Source: Alcanivorax sp. (GTDB lineage: Bacteria > Pseudomonadota > Gammaproteobacteria > Pseudomonadales > Alcanivoracaceae). From it: a stretch of DNA of 64,000 bases. The DNA lies in contig CP051239.1 in the NCBI GenBank assembly GCA_017794945.1, positions 2,470,692-2,534,691 of the forward strand, read 5' to 3'. Made by a program: the position numbers and the translations under genes. Of this stretch, positions 6,930 through 26,789 are shown one piece after another; position 1 is the stretch's first letter; each line of letters begins with the position of its first letter. The notes beneath the pieces were generated by a model. The model was not told the DNA's origin. It saw only the letters and a list, made by a program, of their open reading frames with translations, and ran no database searches.

Positions 6930-7110
6930 TTTAAGTGTGAGCAATTCGTGATTGTTGTGGTACGTTGCCACTACAAATTACACATACTAAGCAACTTAAA
7001 TTCCATAATAGCTAAGTAAAAAGTATTAGTTTTTTGACGGTATGAAGGGTCCGGCGCGAACAGCGCCGGGGGAGACCTCGGTCATGGGGTGCCGAAGGAG
7101 TGAAAGAGCA

Positions 7111-7416
7111 ATGAAGATCGATAGCGTCTTAGAAGAAATCCAGGATATCAATCTGACCTACCTGCTGCTGGCGCAGCGTCTTCTCAAGGAAGATTACGCC
7201 ACGGCCATGTTCCGGTTGAAGATCGACCAGGCGATGGCGGAAGTGTTGGTTTCCCTGTCCGCCAAACAGCTCAGCCAGATGGCGCGTACTAACCAGTTGC
7301 TGTTCCGTCTGCATTTCGACGACGCGGACCAGGTCACCAAGCTCACCAATAACAAGCGGGAGCAGGGGCTGGGGCAAACCCACGCGGCGTTGTTGATGGC
7401 GTCCTGCGCGAGCTGA
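7111..7416 (+). CDS. flhD: Flagellar master regulator subunit FlhD
   Basis: 101 residues starting at ATG 7111 behind GAAGGAG. FlhD forms the FlhD4C2 activator with FlhC and switches on class 2 flagellar operons with sigma-70. The family core is clear: [39 protein letters not shown] and a C-terminal HAALLMA. Earlier in-frame codons (7042, 7084) lie in the leader and are not favoured. flhC follows after 17 bases, giving a two-gene operon. Confidence 0.95.
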
Positions 7417-7433
7417 TCGGGGGGAGGGGTCCA

Positions 7434-8012
7434 ATGTCCGAGAAGAGTCTGGTCGGCGAAATGCATCAGGTGCAATTGGCGATCGAGTTGATCGAGCTGG
7501 GGGCACGGCTGCAGGTGTTGGAATCGGAAACCGAGCTCAGCCGTGGCCGGTTGATCCGGCTTTACAAGGAAGTGCGCGGCATGTCGCCGCCGAAGGGGAT
7601 GCTGCCGTTTTCCACCGACTGGTTCATCACCTGGCTGCCGAACATCCATTCTTCCTTGTTCTACAGCTTTTACCGGCAGCTTACCGGCGAGCACGACTGT
7701 GGTCGTATGGAGGGCTTCGTGAAGTCCTACCGCCTGTACCTGGAGCAGATTGCTCTGGATGGTGCCGAACCGGTGTTGGGGCTGACCCGCGCCTGGACCT
7801 TGGTGCGCTTCTTTGAAAGCGAAATGTTCGAACTGTCGGAATGCACCAGCTGCCACGGTCATTTCGTTAACCACGCGCATACACCCAGTCAGGGTTTTGT
7901 GTGTGGTATTTGCCAGCCGCCGTCCCGGGCCGGCAAGACCCGCAAACGCCAGAGCGCGGTGAGTGAAGCGGGCCGACGGACCGGCGGTCGCCAACAGGCG
8001 GTGGCACCTTAA
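7434..8012 (+). CDS. flhC: Flagellar master regulator subunit FlhC
   Basis: 192 residues, the DNA-contacting subunit of FlhD4C2. The zinc site is visible as CTSCHGHFV (about 139-147) and CGICQPP (about 161-167), giving a CxxC...CxxC pair. The conserved segment [20 protein letters not shown] is present. The Arg/Lys-rich tail after the zinc site is typical of DNA-binding extensions. The start is ATG 7434, a few bases after GGGGAGGGG. It fixes this flagellar system as FlhDC-controlled rather than FleQ/FlrA-controlled, the more usual state in polar-flagellated gammaproteobacteria. Confidence 0.96.
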
Positions 8013-19571: not shown

Positions 19572-20708
19572 ATGGCCAAAGAGACCGAAGATCAGGAAAA
19601 GACCGAAGAGGCCACGCCCCGGCGCCTGGAAAAGGCCCGGGAAGACGGCCAGGTGGCCCGCTCCCGGGAACTGACCACCGTAATGCTGCTGTTCGGCGGT
19701 GTCGGCGGTCTCTGGTCCATGGGCCCGACGCTGTTCGATCAGGTCGGCATGGTCATGGAGCAGTCGTTCCTGTTCGACCGCCGCCAGGGCTTCGACAGCA
19801 CGGTGATGCTCACTCACGCCGTGGATCTGGGCGCGCGCACCCTGTTCGCGCTGATTCCCCTGTTCCTGATGCTGGCGGTGATCGCATTGATCTCGCCCAA
19901 CCTGCTGGGCGGCTTCCTGATTTCCGCCAAGTCGCTCAAACCCCAGCCTTCCAAACTCAACCCGATCAAGGGCCTCAAGCGGCAGTTCTCCTCCCAGGCG
20001 CTGGCCGAGCTGGCCAAGGCGATCGCCAAGTCGATCCTGGTGGGGTCGGTGGCGGTGGCGTTCCTGAGCGCCAAGCGCGGTGAGTTCATGGCGCTGATGG
20101 ATCAGCCCACGCAGCAGGCGCTGGCCAATGCGTTACGCCTGGCGGCCATGGCCTGCGGACTGATGGTGCTGTCGCTGGTGGTGGTGATCCTGCTCGACGT
20201 GCCCTATCAACTGTGGAGCCACGCCAAGAAGCTGCGCATGAGCAAGGAGGAGATCAAGCGCGAGCACAAGGAAACCGAAGGCGACCCGCAATTGAAAGCC
20301 AAGATTCGCTCCCAGCAGCAGGCCATGGCCCGCAACCGGATGATGAGCCAGGTGCCGGACGCCGACGTGATCGTGACCAACCCGACCCACTACGCGGTGG
20401 CCCTGCGCTACGACGAGAGCAACATGAGCGCCCCCCGGGTGATCGCCAAGGGCGCCGATGAAGTGGCCGCGCGCATCCGCGAGCTGGGCGGCGAGCACCA
20501 TGTGCCGTTGCTGGAAGCGCCGCCGCTGGCGCGGGCGCTGTACCGCCATGTGGACATCGACCGGGAGATTCCCGGGCCGCTCTATACCGCCGTGGCGGAA
20601 GTGCTGGTGTGGGCGTTCCGCCTTAAGCGGGCCCGGGAAGAGGGCGGCGACCAGCCGGTGACCCCGGCGGACCTGCCGATCCCGGCGGAACTGGAGGTGG
20701 CGCCGTGA
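19572..20708 (+). CDS. flhB: Flagellar export apparatus switch protein FlhB
   Basis: 378 residues. Four membrane segments in the first 215 residues, then the cytoplasmic domain with the autocleavage motif NPTH at 270-273 (VTNPTHYAVAL). A charged N terminus (MAKETEDQEKTEEATPRRLE) is typical. FlhB sets substrate specificity of the export gate together with FliK. A proline-rich tail ends the protein (QPVTPADLPIPAEL). Overlaps flhA by 4 bases. Confidence 0.97.
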   Translation: MAKETEDQEKTEEATPRRLEKAREDGQVARSRELTTVMLLFGGVGGLWSMGPTLFDQVGMVMEQSFLFDRRQGFDSTVMLTHAVDLGARTLFALIPLFLMLAVIALISPNLLGGFLISAKSLKPQPSKLNPIKGLKRQFSSQALAELAKAIAKSILVGSVAVAFLSAKRGEFMALMDQPTQQALANALRLAAMACGLMVLSLVVVILLDVPYQLWSHAKKLRMSKEEIKREHKETEGDPQLKAKIRSQQQAMARNRMMSQVPDADVIVTNPTHYAVALRYDESNMSAPRVIAKGADEVAARIRELGGEHHVPLLEAPPLARALYRHVDIDREIPGPLYTAVAEVLVWAFRLKRAREEGGDQPVTPADLPIPAELEVAP

Positions 20709-22789
20709 AAGCGATGAGCCAATACCTGGGTGGGCGCGAGCTGCTCGGCGACGGCGGCGCCAAGGTGCTTGCCGGGCCGATCCTGATCCTGCTGATCATG
20801 TCCATGTTGATCCTGCCGCTGCCGCCGTTCGCGCTGGACATGTTCTTTACCTTCAATATCGCCCTGGCGTTGATGGTGCTGCTGGTCAGCATGTTCACCC
20901 TGAGTGCGCTGGAATTCGCCGCCTTCCCGGCGGTGCTGCTGTTCACCACTCTGTTGCGCCTGGCCCTGAACGTGGCGTCCACGCGGGTGGTGTTGATGGA
21001 GGGTCACGAAGGCGGCGCCGCCGCCGGCAAGGTGATCGAGGCGTTCGGCCAGTTCCTGGTGGGCGGCAACTTCGCCGTCGGCCTGGTGGTGTTCCTGATT
21101 CTGGTGGTGATCAACTTCATGGTAATCACCAAGGGCGCCGGGCGCATCGCCGAGGTGGGCGCACGCTTCATGCTCGACGCCATGCCCGGCAAGCAGATGG
21201 CCATCGACGCCGACCTCAACGCTGGCCTGATCGGCGAGGAGGACGCCAAGAAACGCCGCGCCGAAGTGGCCCAGGAAGCGGATTTTTACGGCTCCATGGA
21301 CGGCGCCAGCAAATTCGTCCGGGGCGACGCCGTGGCCGGCCTGGTGATCATGGCCGTGAACATCATCGGCGGTCTGCTGATCGGCATGCTGCAGCACGAT
21401 ATGTCGTTCGCCGACGCCGGCCGTACCTACACGCTGCTGACCATCGGCGACGGCCTGGTGGCGCAGATTCCGGCGCTGGTGATTTCCACCGCCGCCGGCG
21501 TCACCGTATCGCGGGTGACCACCGACCAGGACGTCGGCCAGCAGATGATCAGCCAGTTGCTGATGAACCCGCGAGTGATGATTCTCGCCGCCGGCGTCAT
21601 GGGGCTGCTGGGTCTGGTGCCCGGCATGCCCAACTTCGTGTTCCTGCTGTTCACCGCCGGTCTCGCCGGCGCCGCCTGGTACCTGAGCCGCGCCAAGGAA
21701 AACCGCCTCGCCGAAGAACAGATTGAGGCGGCGCCGCCGCCGGAACCGGAAGCGCCGGAGGCGAGCTGGGACGACGTTCAACTGATCGACGTACTGGGCC
21801 TGGAAGTGGGCCACCGCATGATTCCCCTGGTGGACTACCGCCAGCAGGGCGAGCTGCTCGGTCGCATCAAGAGCGTGCGCAAGAAGTTCGCCCAGGAGGT
21901 GGGTTTCCTGCCGCCGGTGGTGCACATTCGCGACAACCTGGATCTGGGCGCCAACACCTATGTGGTCACCCTCAAAGGCGCGGAAGTGGGACGCGGCGAA
22001 GCGTTCCCCGGCAAGTGGCTGGCGATCAACCCGGGCCAGGTCACCGGCGACGTCCAGGGCACCGCCACCCAAGACCCGGCCTTCGGCCTCCCGGCGGTGT
22101 GGATCGAAGCGGATCAGCGCGAGCAGGCCCAGGTGTACGGCTATACCGTGGTCGACGCCAGCACCGTGGTGGCCACCCATCTCAACCATCTGCTGCACCA
22201 CCATTCCGGGGCAATGCTCGGCCGTCAGGAAGTGCAGCAGTTGCTCGACAAGCTGGGCGAGGACAGCAAGGCCCTGGTGGAAGACGTGGTGCCCAAGGCG
22301 GTGTCGCTCACCGTGCTGCAGCGCCTGCTGCAGAACCTGCTGGAAGAGGACGTCTCGATCCGCGATATGCGCACCATCCTCGACACCCTGGCGGAGCACG
22401 CCGGCCAGAATGCCGACGCCCACGAGCTCACCGCCCAGGTGCGCGTGGCCCTGGGCCGGGCCATTACCCATCAGTGGTTCCCGGGCCAGGACGAACTGCA
22501 CGTGATCGGCCTGGACAGCAATCTGGAGCAGGTGCTTGGCCAGGCGCTGAACGGCGGCGGGGCGTTGGAGCCGGGCCTTGCCGACACCTTGATGGAACAG
22601 GCCGCCGCCGCCCTCGAGCGCCAGGAAGCCGCCGGCGAGCCGCCGGTGCTGGTGGTGCAGCACGGCCTGCGGCCGTTGCTGGCCCACTTCCTGCGCCGCC
22701 GCCTGCGCCACCTGGTGGTGATGTCGCAGGCGGAGATTCCCGACGACCGCACGCTGCGCGTGACCAACATGATCGGCGGCAGCGCGTAG
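20705..22789 (+). CDS. flhA: Flagellar export gate protein FlhA
   Basis: 694 residues. Start GTG 20705, with GGAGG 7 bases upstream; ATG 20714 is an alternative. Eight membrane helices occupy about 20-325, with the FHIPEP signature region near MVLLVSMFTLSALEFAAFP and the cytoplasmic loop containing KQMAIDADLNAGLI. The C-terminal half forms the chaperone-substrate docking ring. The TAG stop is the outermost triplet of a palindromic element inserted before flhF. Confidence 0.97.
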   Translation: MKAMSQYLGGRELLGDGGAKVLAGPILILLIMSMLILPLPPFALDMFFTFNIALALMVLLVSMFTLSALEFAAFPAVLLFTTLLRLALNVASTRVVLMEGHEGGAAAGKVIEAFGQFLVGGNFAVGLVVFLILVVINFMVITKGAGRIAEVGARFMLDAMPGKQMAIDADLNAGLIGEEDAKKRRAEVAQEADFYGSMDGASKFVRGDAVAGLVIMAVNIIGGLLIGMLQHDMSFADAGRTYTLLTIGDGLVAQIPALVISTAAGVTVSRVTTDQDVGQQMISQLLMNPRVMILAAGVMGLLGLVPGMPNFVFLLFTAGLAGAAWYLSRAKENRLAEEQIEAAPPPEPEAPEASWDDVQLIDVLGLEVGHRMIPLVDYRQQGELLGRIKSVRKKFAQEVGFLPPVVHIRDNLDLGANTYVVTLKGAEVGRGEAFPGKWLAINPGQVTGDVQGTATQDPAFGLPAVWIEADQREQAQVYGYTVVDASTVVATHLNHLLHHHSGAMLGRQEVQQLLDKLGEDSKALVEDVVPKAVSLTVLQRLLQNLLEEDVSIRDMRTILDTLAEHAGQNADAHELTAQVRVALGRAITHQWFPGQDELHVIGLDSNLEQVLGQALNGGGALEPGLADTLMEQAAAALERQEAAGEPPVLVVQHGLRPLLAHFLRRRLRHLVVMSQAEIPDDRTLRVTNMIGGSA

Positions 22790-23064
22790 TGTGAACAAGG
22801 GCCTGTTCACACTACTCGCATCATGCCTGTTGTGGCTAAAAATCCACCAATCAAGGCACGAGGAGAGAAGTTTGGTGACTCCAAATGAACGACGAGTAAC
22901 GCGGAGTGGTGGATTTTTAGCCACAACCCGAAGGGCTGGAACCATTTTGACCTTCAGCGTCGTTGTCGGTCGCTTATTTGGAATGACCAAACGGCGCTCC
23001 CTCCGCCTAGCTGGAGGCCAAAATGGCATCCAGCAGGCGTGATGCGAGTAGTGTGAACAGGCCC
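22787..23064. repeat. Nested palindromic element of about 270 bp between flhA and flhF
   Basis: Outer arms of 31 bases (22799-22829 and 23034-23064, GGGCCTGTTCACACTACTCG on the left) match at 30 of 31 positions. Inside are further inverted blocks: TTGTGGCTAAAAATCCACCA against its complement around 22904-22926, GTTTGGT..TCCAAAT against a copy near 22975-22993, and CCATTTTG against CAAAATGG. A third copy of TAGTGTGAACA precedes the left arm (22787-22797) and pairs with 22804-22814. The open frame inside (22791-23042) has no coding character and no transposase domain. It looks like a non-autonomous, MITE-like element. Confidence 0.85.
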
Positions 23065-23097: not shown

Positions 23098-25170
23098 ATG
23101 GGCGTGCAACGCTTTGTCGGCAGCAACAACCGGGAAGCCATGGGCCGCGTGCGCGCGGCGTTGGGCGACGACGCCCTGATCCTGGCCAACCGCGCCACCG
23201 ACCAGGGCGTGGAGATTCTCGCCCTGGCCGAGGGCGACTCTTCCGGCTATGCGCCGCCGGAGCCGGGAGGGGCGGACCGCGCCGGTCGGGCGGCGGTGGC
23301 GCCGGCGGAGCCGCGCCCCACCGACCGCGCCCCCGCCGGCCCCGATCTCACCGAGCAGTTGCTACGCGAAGTGCGCGACATGCGCGAACAGCTGGCCCGC
23401 CGTGCGCCGGCCGGCGATGACGAGGGCCCGCGCCAGGCATTGCGGCGGCGTCTGCTGGGCGCCGGATTCAGCACGGTATTCAGTGACACGCTACTGGCCG
23501 GGCTGCCGCCGGAGGCGCAGCGCGACGACCAGGCCGACGACTGGCTGCAGCGCCAACTGCGGCGCCGTCTTTCCGTGGCGACGGCCGGCGAGCTGGAGCA
23601 ACCCGGCGTGATCGCGCTGGTCGGCCCTACCGGGGTGGGCAAAACCACCACCGCCGCCAAGCTGGCGGCGCGGCTGGCCCGGCGTCACGGCGCCGAACGG
23701 GTTGCCCTGGTCAGCGCCGACAGCTACCGCATCGGTGCCCGTGATCAACTGCGTATCTACGCGGATCTGCTCGGCGTCGCTCTGTTTAACCTGGAAGAGG
23801 GCGAACCGCTGGACCGGCTGACCGGCTCGCTGGCGGGCCGCCCCTGGGTGGTGGTGGATACCATCGGCATGAGCCAGCGGGACGCCCGCTTAGGCGAGCA
23901 GTTGCGCCAGCTCAGCGGCGCCTTGCGGGTGCGGCCGGTGTTGCTGCTCAACGCCGCCAGCCAGGGCGAGACCCTGGAGGAAGTGGTGGCCGTGTACCGG
24001 GGCACCGCCCGGACCGCCGGGCTGGCCCTGGACGATGCCATCATCAGCAAGCAGGACGAGGCCAGCCGGCTGGGTCCGGTACTCGACGCCGCCCTCCGCC
24101 ATGACCTGCGGTTGCATTACGTGTGCCGGGGCCAGCGGGTGCCCGAGGACATGGTAGCCGCCGACGCCGCCGGCCTGGTGGACGACGCCCTGGCGCTCAC
24201 CGGGGACAGCGACGATAACGGCCGACCCGGCGCTCCGGGCTGGGCGCGCCAGGTGCTGGCCCAGGGGCGTGCCCTGGACGCCGCCGTATCCCTGTTGCGC
24301 GAGGGCGCCCCGGATTTCAACGCCACGGAGGCGCTGTGGCGGGGCCGGCCGCCGGCGGACCGCCCCGCCGCCGATCAGGCACCGGTGCATTTACGACATG
24401 GCGGCGCGCGTCCGGTGCCGGTACTCGGGCTGGACCCCCACGGGCTGCCCGTGGGCGTGCCGACCGCGCCCGATACACGTTTTTCCCTTGCAGCCCAGCT
24501 GTTGCCGGCCCCCCCGGACACCGCGCTCTGGCGCGCCTTGCAGCAAAGCGGCCAGCCGTGGTTGTCGGCGGCCCGGGGCAACAGCCGGGTCTGGCGTCTC
24601 GGCCAGCGCCTGCCGTTGAACGAGTGCTATCCGCTGGCGGCGCCCTGGGACAGCTTGATGGTGCGTCACCGCGGCCGCGCCGCCCAGCTGCGCCTGCGGC
24701 GCCTGGATGTGGCCGCGTCGCCCACCGGTCGCGGCGATGGCGCGCCGTTCACCGCCTTGTTGTGCGCCTGGTTCGGTGAAATACGCGACCTGGACAGCGG
24801 CCGTCTGCTCGGACGCCGCTATTGGGTCGCCCCGGCCGGCCAGAGCCGCCAGCAGGACAGCGCCTTGCTGGTGCACATGCTGCGTTGCGAAGAGTGGCCG
24901 GCGCTGCGCGAGCGCGCCGCCACCGACCTGAATGCCGCCGGCGGCGGCGAAGCTTCCTGGGAGCTGGCCGGCGCCCTGGCGGCGCTGGCGGTCCGTCTGG
25001 ATCAGGACAACAGTGACTGGGCCCTGGATCTGCGCGCCCAGCTGCTGAGTCTGACCGGCAGCCGGCGGCGTAGCGCCGCCACCTTGCTGACCGCCTTGAT
25101 CGAGCTGTTCAGCGCCCGCCGCGAATTGCAGCGCATCGGCGCGGTGGCCGGAGACACCGGCCATGCCTGA
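23098..25170 (+). CDS. flhF: Flagellar SRP-type GTPase FlhF with a long C-terminal extension
   Basis: 690 residues; typical FlhF is about 370-500. The N terminus (VQRFVGSNNREAMGRVRAAL, DDALILANR) and the GTPase domain are canonical: P-loop GPTGVGKTTTAAKL (about 177-190), SADSYRIGARDQL, DTIGMSQRD (usually DTAGMSQRD) and SKQDEASRLG (usually TKLDE). After about residue 380 follows roughly 310 residues I cannot assign, with LWRALQQSGQPWLSAARGN, WVAPAGQSRQQDSALLVHML and a helical Leu/Arg-rich end. FlhF places or counts flagella. The ribosome site is AGAGGA; it overlaps the next gene by 8 bases. Confidence 0.93.
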   Translation: MGVQRFVGSNNREAMGRVRAALGDDALILANRATDQGVEILALAEGDSSGYAPPEPGGADRAGRAAVAPAEPRPTDRAPAGPDLTEQLLREVRDMREQLARRAPAGDDEGPRQALRRRLLGAGFSTVFSDTLLAGLPPEAQRDDQADDWLQRQLRRRLSVATAGELEQPGVIALVGPTGVGKTTTAAKLAARLARRHGAERVALVSADSYRIGARDQLRIYADLLGVALFNLEEGEPLDRLTGSLAGRPWVVVDTIGMSQRDARLGEQLRQLSGALRVRPVLLLNAASQGETLEEVVAVYRGTARTAGLALDDAIISKQDEASRLGPVLDAALRHDLRLHYVCRGQRVPEDMVAADAAGLVDDALALTGDSDDNGRPGAPGWARQVLAQGRALDAAVSLLREGAPDFNATEALWRGRPPADRPAADQAPVHLRHGGARPVPVLGLDPHGLPVGVPTAPDTRFSLAAQLLPAPPDTALWRALQQSGQPWLSAARGNSRVWRLGQRLPLNECYPLAAPWDSLMVRHRGRAAQLRLRRLDVAASPTGRGDGAPFTALLCAWFGEIRDLDSGRLLGRRYWVAPAGQSRQQDSALLVHMLRCEEWPALRERAATDLNAAGGGEASWELAGALAALAVRLDQDNSDWALDLRAQLLSLTGSRRRSAATLLTALIELFSARRELQRIGAVAGDTGHA

Positions 25171-25597
25171 TCAGGCTGCCGGACTGCGGGCGCGGGCACG
25201 CCCCGAACATCCCGGGCCGGCGCCCACCCTGATGGTGGTCGGCCTGCCGCCCAATGCCGCCACCGAAACGGTGACCGAGCGGCTCGCCGGCTGGGCCCGG
25301 CGCGGCCGGCGCTGGGTCGGTGATCCGGCCGCCTGGCGCATCGTGGTGTTGGACCCGGCCAGCCCGTACCTGCCGCTGCTGGCCAGCCAGCAACGGCGCT
25401 GGGCGCTGTGGGTGGACAACGACGCGGACGCCTTCCGCCGTGCCTATCGCACGCTCAAGATACTGCGCGGTCACCCCGGCCCCAGCCGCCTGCTGGCGCT
25501 GCACGCCCCCGGAGTGCCCAGGGCCGGTCTGCTCAGCAACCTGCAACACGGCGCCCGGCGGTTTCTGGATATTGAACTGGTGGTGCTGTCGTCATGA
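25163..25597 (+). CDS. Small protein in the flhG position; possible FlhG/MinD remnant
   Basis: 144 residues, not assigned to a family with certainty. It sits where flhG (fleN) normally lies, between flhF and the downstream fliA. The second half resembles the C-terminal half of FlhG: DADAFRRAYRTLKILRG (compare the DAYALIK helix) and then GARRFLDIELVVL (compare the ARRFLGVEL region). The P-loop KGGVGKT and the switch motifs are absent, so it cannot be an ordinary MinD-type ATPase. The start ATG 25163 overlaps flhF, and it overlaps flhE by 4 bases. The FlhG relationship is my inference from position and weak similarity. Confidence 0.7.
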   Translation: MPDQAAGLRARARPEHPGPAPTLMVVGLPPNAATETVTERLAGWARRGRRWVGDPAAWRIVVLDPASPYLPLLASQQRRWALWVDNDADAFRRAYRTLKILRGHPGPSRLLALHAPGVPRAGLLSNLQHGARRFLDIELVVLSS

Positions 25598-25983
25598 TAA
25601 GGATCGCCGGGTTGCTGCTGCTCTTGTTGGGGGCACCGCTCCCGGCGGCGCCGGGCAGCTGGCAATCGCCGCTGGACGAGCTGCGCCTGGCGGTGGCCGG
25701 TCGTTTCTATCACAGCGAATCGGCAACGCCGCCGCCGATGGCGGCGGGGGCGCACATCGTGCGGATCGGCTGGCGCTACCGGCTGCCCGCCGGGCGCCGC
25801 GTTCAGGCTTGGTTGTGCCAGGGCGAGCAGTGCCTGCCCCTGGGCAGCGCCCGACGCGGGCATTTTCTGGCGCCGCCGGCCTGGCGCGTGGCGCGGCCGC
25901 TGCGGCTGCGCTTTCGCCTGCCCGCCGGCGAGCGCCGCGCGGTCACCGTGGGGGCGCCCCGGCTGACGGTGGAATACCGCTAG
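25594..25983 (+). CDS. flhE: Flagellar protein FlhE
   Basis: 129 residues with a signal peptide (MIRIAGLLLLLLGAPLPAAP, cut near 18-20). The FlhE pattern is present: GSWQSPLDELRLAVAGRFYHS, a conserved WRYRLPAGRRV, and the disulphide pair CQGEQC (about 76-81). In enterobacteria FlhE follows flhA and is a periplasmic protein that limits proton leak through the export gate. Here it is displaced behind flhF and the flhG-like gene, coupled by ATGA. Confidence 0.82.
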   Translation: MIRIAGLLLLLLGAPLPAAPGSWQSPLDELRLAVAGRFYHSESATPPPMAAGAHIVRIGWRYRLPAGRRVQAWLCQGEQCLPLGSARRGHFLAPPAWRVARPLRLRFRLPAGERRAVTVGAPRLTVEYR

Positions 25984-26084: not shown

Positions 26085-26789
26085 ATGTATACGGCACAGG
26101 GTAAAATCAATCACGACGCACTGCTGGAAGAGCATCTTCCGGCCGTCCGCCGACAGGCGCTGGCGCTACAGGTGAAGCTGCCTTCGGGTATCGACCTGGA
26201 TGACTTGATCCAGGCCGGCACCGTGGGGCTGCTCGACGCCTTGCAGCGCTTTGACGCCAACGCCGGCGCCAGCTTCTCCACCTTCGCCAGCCAGCGCATT
26301 CGCGGCGCCATGATTGATGAACTGCGCACCCGCGACTGGTTGCCGCGCAGCGTGCGCCGCAACGCCCGCGCCGTGGATCAATGCGTGCACCGGCTGGAGC
26401 AAAAGCTGGGGCGGCCCGCCGAAGAGCGCGAAATCGCCAACGAAATGGGCATGGATCTGGAGCAGTACCGGCAGCTGCTCACTGACACCAATAACGGTCT
26501 GCTGTTGCCCTATGAAGAGATGGTGGAGGAGCGTGGCGAACCGGAAGCCGGCAGTGGGTCGCCGCCGTCGCCGTTCGCCGCCCTGGTGGCCGGTGAGCAG
26601 CGCGAGCAGCTCACCGCCGCCATCGAGACGCTGCCCGAGCGCGAGAAGCTGCTGCTCGCGCTGTACTACCAGGAAGAGCTCAACCTTAAGGAAATCGGCG
26701 CCGTGCTCGGGGTTACCGAGTCCCGCGTCTGCCAGCTGCACAGCCAGGCGGTGAGCCGGCTGCGGGCGCGCCTGGCGCCTGACGCCTAA
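26085..26789 (+). CDS. fliA: Flagellar sigma factor FliA (sigma-28)
   Basis: 234 residues from ATG 26085, with CGGGGA upstream. Region 2 ([47 protein letters not shown]), region 3 ([17 protein letters not shown]) and region 4 ([20 protein letters not shown], then [20 protein letters not shown]) are all present. It directs transcription from the TAAA-N15-GCCGAT promoters found in this window. About 100 bases separate it from flhE, and I see no FliA-type promoter there, so it is probably expressed with the flh genes. Confidence 0.97.

Follow-up and report, generated by a model that had tools for sequence, protein, structure and literature searches.

The 64,000-nucleotide stretch of Alcanivorax sp. 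DNA analysed here (the window; contig CP051239.1) carries, directly downstream of flhF, a gene for a 144-residue protein, hereafter X, in the slot normally occupied by flhG. X is likely a remnant of FlhG that has been reduced to a nucleotide-independent activator of the GTPase FlhF. It keeps the enhancer-helix motif DQAxxLR of FlhG at its extreme N-terminus and parts of the body that follows, while the P-loop, an internal block and the C-terminal end are gone. The features of X are as follows, in coordinates of the window.

25163–25597, + strand: X (mini-FlhG), ATG to TGA, 144 aa, FlhG-derived, without a nucleotide-binding motif
25169–25189, + strand: FlhG enhancer-helix motif DQAxxLR (X codons 3–9, DQAAGLR)
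25226–25261, + strand: position of FlhG strand 1 and P-loop (X codons 22–33), with TLMVVGLPPNAA in place of the GKGGVGKT loop
25340–25366, + strand: counterpart of the FlhG DTAAG strand (X codons 60–68, IVVLDPASP, from the joint alignment)
25403–25465, + strand: counterpart of FlhG EPxSITDAYALIKxL (X codons 81–101)
25559–25588, + strand: counterpart of FlhG RFLDVxL (X codons 133–142, RFLDIELVVL), where X ends

Relationship of X to FlhG

The initial annotation of this DNA had placed a half-size protein without a Walker A motif in the flhG position, and both observations stand. The open reading frame (ORF) at 25163–25597 directly follows flhF, and neither GxxxxGK[ST] nor the deviant Walker A form KGGxGK[ST] occurs in X. 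Across the 54-row X family, the sole matches to the GxxxxGK[ST] pattern belong to one identical protein (L004 and L073) and fall in a long linker, off the P-loop position. X had no match in Pfam or NCBIfam up to E = 1, and the same scan gave neither a MinD model match nor a Walker A motif.

The annotation had also taken X to be related to FlhG and proposed a comparison of hidden Markov models (HMMs), which bears this out. Against 78 FlhG sequences of Burkholderiales-type genomes (that is, of the order of genome G782; named Burkholderiales show the same features), profile comparison gives a probability of 97.7 (P = 2.5e-12), with a maximum of 1.1 in 200 column shuffles and 0.2 for the reversed profile, and 33 FlhG sequences of G782's order give the same probability (P = 2.4e-12). 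A plain HMM of the 78 sequences (285 positions) aligns to X in two collinear pieces, the first from model positions 1–46 to X residues 3–50 (15.0 bits) and the second from 134–214 to 64–140 (21.4 bits). In the joint alignment, X AFRRAYRTLKIL falls on FlhG TDAYALIKVL and X RFLDIELVVL on RYLDVTLDFM. What X has lost relative to FlhG is the P-loop, approximately 70 internal residues including the DAD strand, and approximately 70 C-terminal residues; it ends before the C-terminal membrane-targeting sequence, which is absent. Judged by these sequence comparisons, X is FlhG-derived.

The predicted structure points the same way. The AlphaFold2 model of X, built with 12 sequences (predicted local distance difference test (pLDDT) of 74.6, predicted template modelling (pTM) score of 0.65), shows a five-strand alternating alpha/beta fold preceded by a short helix at residues 5–10. 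Ranks 1–4 in Foldseek are FlhG (4rz2_A, 4rz3_A, 4rz2_B) and FleN (5j1j_B), with E-values of 1.8e-4 to 1.0e-3 and template modelling (TM) scores of 0.46–0.49. The 50 rows given by VIA-align for X include no MinD, which says nothing against a relationship. The model thus backs, without proving, the relation to FlhG.

Several results weigh against this derivation and the function that we build on it. With canonical FlhG, the match of X is weak: the first hhalign comparison was not significant (P = 0.022), and probabilities were 32.8 and 49.3 with a broader set and 14.6 with gappy columns removed, the last a value reached by 0 of 200 shuffles. Sequence searches of the PDB with the first 26 residues of X and with the X profile did not find FlhG. 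The model itself is middling, with a pLDDT of ~50 in residues 1–20; the Foldseek row that follows FlhG and FleN is an unrelated receptor entry (E = 1.3e-3), and VIA-align places 4rz3 only at rank 13 (Z 7.7, root-mean-square deviation (rmsd) 4.0, 123 residues aligned), tied with many Rossmann-like folds (top Z 8.8). Finally, DQAxxLR is not universal in FlhG. It occurs in 20 of 52 canonical frames, these being 0/26 in the sample of the window's own order and 20/26 in the class sample, to which L030 (own order, outside those 26) and L133, read separately, add one frame each. The FleN of pseudomonads is described as being without the DQAxxLR helix (PMC12713375).

Conservation of the enhancer helix

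Within the X family, the N-terminal motif is nearly unvarying. D3, Q4, A5, G7, L8 and R9 are invariant in a 20-row alignment, in which most members read DQAAGLR, and in the window the motif occurs only once across six frames (127,996 residues). Of 47 rows found by BLAST, the window included and three identical pairs among them, 46 carry DQAxxLR, which corresponds to 46/46 of those with their N-terminus on the contig; the exception, L074, is truncated by the contig end four residues before the body. Seven further divergent relatives also carry the motif, but these are weaker evidence because they were picked partly by it, and the profile match of L098 and L100 is the N-terminus itself. According to a review by Bange and others, the glutamine of the enhancer helix is co-catalytic, stimulating the FlhF GTPase and promoting the passage from active dimer to inactive monomer (PMC12826062). 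The annotation had credited X with features of the C-terminal half of FlhG only. The likeness to that half is real, as the profile match attests, but the extreme N-terminus of FlhG has been kept as well, and the half size reflects losses that are internal and C-terminal.

Distribution and constraint

The closest named relatives of X are found in an Alcanivorax metagenome-assembled genome (L002, 87% identity) and in Alloalcanivorax venustensis ISO4 (L003, L014), followed by Halomonas, Onishia and Billgrantia at 49–60%; halomonad X proteins are mostly 40–60% identical. Among 275 halomonad-family genomes, X was found in 163, and in the order sample it was found in 6 of 194, its own genome counted. 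In the class sample, the X profile matched 2/369 genomes at E 0.001 (G000 and G073); the degenerate Burkholderiales-type FlhG described below thus lies beyond its reach, and a search of plasmids with X gave no match. Of 25 genomes picked for an absent or weak X match in BLAST and then tested for FlhF, 21 had no FlhF match at E 1e-30 and four had FlhF over the cut-off; an X-like protein of strongly diverged sequence is encoded in each of these four (G036, G176, G315 and G366). In the genomes tested, X accompanies FlhF. The X-like proteins of G036 and G176 (L098 and L100) are the most divergent: the body is hardly alignable, DQASGLRQW is intact and the FlhF extension is present.

X is a constrained gene and not a chance ORF, given its 87% identity in L002 and mostly 40–60% in halomonads, the kept gene order and a ratio of nonsynonymous to synonymous substitution rates (dN/dS, NG86) of 0.24 for the single pair of the window and L002. 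The linker is variable while the motif and body are conserved, and all 20 aligned rows share the body residues W44, W51, W58, W80, G122–L124 and N126. In A. venustensis ISO4, we observe flhB, flhA, flhF, X and flhE at 87–99% identity to the window (L014 4677–10096 and L003 1–668), with X split over two contig ends. The species has been reported with the compared flagellar genes completely absent (PMC12046545), from which the ISO4 contigs differ.

A complete FlhG elsewhere in the genome, which the annotation had raised as something to look for, was not found with the FlhG profile, the best other match scoring 83.4 bits. In all of the X genomes searched (24/24), the FlhG profile reaches at most 84.8 bits, which is the range of the second, non-FlhG matches of the control genomes (74.9–85 bits), whereas the true FlhG of those controls (4/4) scores 465–495 bits. 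The window's assembly is listed as 86.5% complete, and X-bearing relatives at 99–100% are also without a complete FlhG. A second degenerate copy could escape the profile, as the degenerate FlhG encoded by G833 reaches just 81.8 bits.

Degenerate FlhG in Burkholderiales-type genomes

Of 120 genomes of the Burkholderiales-type order, 82 encode FlhF, and the stretch around flhF was read in all 82 (L146–L179, L190–L238). A DQAxxLR frame is present there in 79. Strict GxxxxGK[ST] occurs in only 16 of these 79, with some GK[ST] nearby in four more (L162, L199, L209 and L219, of which the last looks displaced), leaving 59–63 without a GK[ST] P-loop. The canonical KGGxGK is found in none of the 78 full-length sequences, defined by at least 120 residues after the motif; the 79th is a short form in G846. 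Of the three that remain, two (G894, with HQASGLQ, and G684) carry FlhG-like frames minus the motif, by eye, and none was seen in G922. In the comparison set of 57 other loci (L030–L059 and L118–L145 minus L122), KGGxGK is present in 56, the remaining one, L054, being without an FlhG-like frame; the contrast is indicative, strong FlhF matches having been the criterion by which these loci were selected. The pattern LEFFVERL, used as a crude proxy for the membrane-targeting C-terminus, is present in 0/78 Burkholderiales-type versus 37/51 other FlhG sequences. Two cases of flhF without an FlhG-like frame downstream differ in what follows: in L054 (G193) the next frame is fliA-like, and in L177/L238 (G922) there is a repetitive stretch.

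Loss of the ATP-binding motif is thus apparently widespread in Burkholderiales-type FlhG. We found no description of this loss in the literature searched, which was mostly outside subscription journals. X would stand at the end of a series of FlhG reduction, whose order of losses we infer from these forms. A second very short form lies in G846.

L231 1330–1647: G846 mini-FlhG, immediately downstream of flhF; DQAEGLR, 106 residues counted from the motif, without a P-loop

This protein scores 76.9 bits against the 78-sequence HMM, and its only start codon before the motif is a TTG at 1297, overlapping the end of flhF. Its DQAEGLR is joined almost directly to a segment that X also keeps (DAYARIK...EYLGVRLEYLG), and, as in X, there is no P-loop. 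Unlike in X, the deletion is larger and differently placed, strand 1 and helix 1 being gone too, and the accompanying FlhF has no long extension. The G846 protein is probably an independent shrinkage.

Gene neighbourhood and the FlhF extension

The genes and domains around X are as follows.

7042–8012, + strand: flhD and flhC, master regulator of the FlhDC-type flagellar system
19572–22789, + strand: flhB and flhA, upstream in the same gene run
23098–25170, + strand: flhF, 690 aa, B domain and NG GTPase domain with P-loop GPTGVGKT present; passes TIGR03499
24193–25167, + strand: C-terminal extension of FlhF, with a homologous extension in some Burkholderiales-type FlhF; Tn5-transposase-like fold predicted
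25594–25983, + strand: flhE, passes PF06366

The gene order is flhB-flhA-flhF-X-flhE, and flhF-X-flhE is likewise read in L006. X shares 8 bases with the end of flhF and 4 with the start of flhE, few-base overlaps with both neighbours of the kind that would be expected in a translationally coupled operon. The window is an FlhDC-type flagellar and chemotaxis region, with fliD, fliS, fliT, a fliK-like gene, flhD, flhC, motA, cheA and cheR upstream of flhB, and a fliA-like frame, recognised by eye only, follows flhE and ends at 26789. The − strand opposite flhA and the end of flhB holds an 815-aa open frame (20582–23029), which probably just reflects codon use at high G+C.

The GTPase motifs of the window's FlhF are kept, by eye. 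Beyond the NG segment compared, 310–367 residues follow in 17/17 halomonad/window FlhF rows and ~400 in 2/34 Burkholderiales-type rows, and the extensions of the two groups are related (probability 97.6, P = 3.4e-12; maximum 0.9 in 100 shuffles). The extension of Cupriavidus metallidurans FlhF (825 aa) is 27% identical to that of L176 over 381 residues (E = 7e-23) and is by that route related to the halomonad one, to whose profile alone it gives a probability of 32; the FlhF of Burkholderia glumae (574 aa) has no long extension. No Pfam model matched the extension, two members alone giving E = 0.015 and 0.17 to unrelated models. In its predicted structure (pLDDT 76.5, pTM 0.75), the six top Foldseek rows are all Tn5 transposase (E = 7.2e-6 to 6.7e-5; next row 0.023), and VIA-align finds Tn5 transposase at Z 9.0–11.1 (rmsd 5.9–6.5, 251–267 residues), followed by Argonautes at Z ≤5.9. 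Sequence profiles gave no link to transposases, IS4 InsG included, which as one sequence is a weak test. As a lead, the predicted fold suggests that the extension is perhaps a domesticated IS4/Tn5-like transposase domain fused to FlhF.

The annotation had suggested that X might work together with this extension. The two do co-occur in all 17 halomonad/window rows, but nothing beyond co-occurrence links them, and degenerate FlhG, including that of G846, is also found without an extension; the account of X does not need it. A wider scenario, in which FlhG was demoted to a nucleotide-free FlhF activator in FlhDC systems, with a mini-form arising at least twice, and in which ATP gating in halomonads and Alloalcanivorax was replaced by a Tn5/IS4-derived FlhF domain, is one that we regard as speculative and doubtful as a whole.

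Origin of the system

In a tree of FlhF NG domains (88 rows, midpoint root; 37 of 57 'gam' loci kept and 20 dropped for a segment too short or an unfit P-loop pattern), the Burkholderiales-type and halomonad/window sequences separate from the other 37 rows with support of 100/100. All 17 halomonad/window rows cluster together (100/100); support for the exact position of this cluster among the Burkholderiales-type sequences is not firm (93/96, 88/90, 93/72). The FlhF proteins of the window and L002 are nested among the Halomonadaceae sequences (98/82 and 100/99). Together with the distribution of DQAxxLR in canonical FlhG (0/26 in the window's own order against 20/26 in the class sample), this topology fits the transfer of a betaproteobacterial-type system into halomonads and then into Alloalcanivorax. 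Transfer of such a flagellar system into enterobacteria has been described (PMC12826062).

FlhDC itself is associated only loosely with P-loop loss. We find flhC in 21/21 X genomes, 0/4 canonical-FlhG genomes and, over the cut-off, 8/12 Burkholderiales-type genomes. Of the eight with FlhC, six have a degenerate P-loop, G782 keeps GKT and G922 has no FlhG; of the four without FlhC, the P-loop is intact in G840 and G839 and degenerate in G853 and G879.

Flagellation in halomonads has been reported as peritrichous, lateral or polar (PMC10690426), and a single flagellum has been seen by electron microscopy in A. dieselolei, A. balearicus and A. xenomutans (PMC12046545). Two X-bearing genomes, G182 (L026) and G080 (L027), would be those of A. 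dieselolei B5 and A. xenomutans JC109. If this identity is right, one flagellum is possible with X, and X does not mean lost number control. The idea that X marks peritrichy was rejected, as single-flagellum Alloalcanivorax probably carry it. The same point counts against our account of X: X-bearing Alloalcanivorax probably make one flagellum, and number control may persist by other means.

Proposed function and alternative explanations

In the mechanism that we propose, X would present the enhancer helix on a small alpha/beta body descended from the MinD-like domain, and Q4 would enter the composite active site of the FlhF dimer, accelerating GTP hydrolysis and ending each 'on' period of FlhF. 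The X protein presumably does not bind ATP and would be constitutively active, within bounds set by its abundance or by proteins that interact with its body; timing would come from the level of X, from flhF-coupled translation or from those partners. With the Walker motifs lost, along with the ATP-dependent dimer and the membrane-targeting end, ATP would no longer time the action of X. X would have arrived with a Burkholderiales-type, FlhDC-driven system whose FlhG had already largely lost the ATP-binding motif. The annotation had held that the FlhF–FlhG switch must work differently here. This appears to apply to ATP gating, dimer cycling and membrane targeting, to judge from the missing parts, but the activating arm, with DQAxxLR kept, probably works as usual.

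Mutants of Bacillus subtilis FlhG offer a precedent (PMC12327844). In the reported results, no discernible change in hook distribution was seen with D65A, a variant that does not hydrolyse ATP, and removal of the membrane-targeting sequence gave ~10% fewer puncta per length, whereas Q8A in DQAxxLR closely resembled the flhG deletion, which led the authors to the inference that FlhG serves centrally to stimulate FlhF. By analogy, X may be what their inference predicts evolution could reach. However, D65A is a constitutive dimer, and the precedent therefore does not show that a protein that cannot bind ATP works.

The best-surviving alternative, though one we consider rather improbable, is that X acts mainly via its body as an adaptor docking FlhF or its extension to the export gate or C-ring, with the helix only a tether. 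The invariant body residues exceed the needs of a mere carrier, the same last segment is retained in the G846 protein, FlhG is known to bind C-ring proteins (PMC12826062), and X and the FlhF extension co-occur throughout the halomonad/window rows. In L098 and L100, however, the body is nearly unrecognisable while DQASGLR stays (both having been found via the N-terminus), and degenerate FlhG also adjoins FlhF without an extension. That X is a functionless leftover decaying en route to loss is very improbable: although it shows deletions relative to FlhG, and 3/82 Burkholderiales-type genomes (G922, G894 and G684) have no DQAxxLR frame beside flhF, this would sit poorly with the dN/dS of 0.24 (from one pair), with a linker that varies while motif and body do not, with the presence of X in 163/275 halomonad-family genomes and with the 21 tested genomes in which X and FlhF matches are missing together. 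Least credible of all is an unrelated small alpha/beta protein with a convergent DQAxxLR helix, for which the weak canonical-FlhG match and the tied folds in VIA-align would speak, against a collinear profile match with clean shuffle controls, FlhG and FleN at Foldseek ranks 1–4 and the same gene slot.

If X is indeed an FlhG remnant that activates FlhF without nucleotide, then X and the Burkholderiales-type series would be natural separation-of-function proteins, in which the helix was retained under selection and the ATP-binding motif was lost. Point mutants have so far been used to ask whether the ATPase of FlhG is required or the FlhF-activating helix suffices; these proteins make the question directly testable, and the G846 protein suggests that such a separation arose more than once. 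In betaproteobacterial-type systems and X-bearing halomonads, the protein in the flhG slot should not be assumed to be an ATPase.

Comparison with known systems

X shares with canonical FlhG/FleN/YlxH (PDB 4rz2, 4rz3, 5j1j) the gene position, a collinear core and, in part of them, the DQAxxLR helix, but it is half as long and has no Walker A, no DAD-strand region and no membrane-targeting end. As Walker A and the membrane-targeting sequence are absent, X is classed not as an FlhG ATPase but as a degenerate, FlhG-derived protein. MinD and ParA are related to it distantly via FlhG; X lacks their nucleotide-binding motif and matches no family model. Closer are the degenerate FlhG proteins of the C. 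metallidurans CH34 megaplasmid (L239 3483–4307) and B. glumae pBGF2 (L240 2510–3322), which like X follow flhF and start with DQAxxLR. They have DAGAGATT and GPVGVGCT where GKGGVGKT is expected, and no LEFFVERL-like end, by eye. Unlike X, these proteins are near full length (~270 aa), whereas X is without a further internal block and the C-terminal region.

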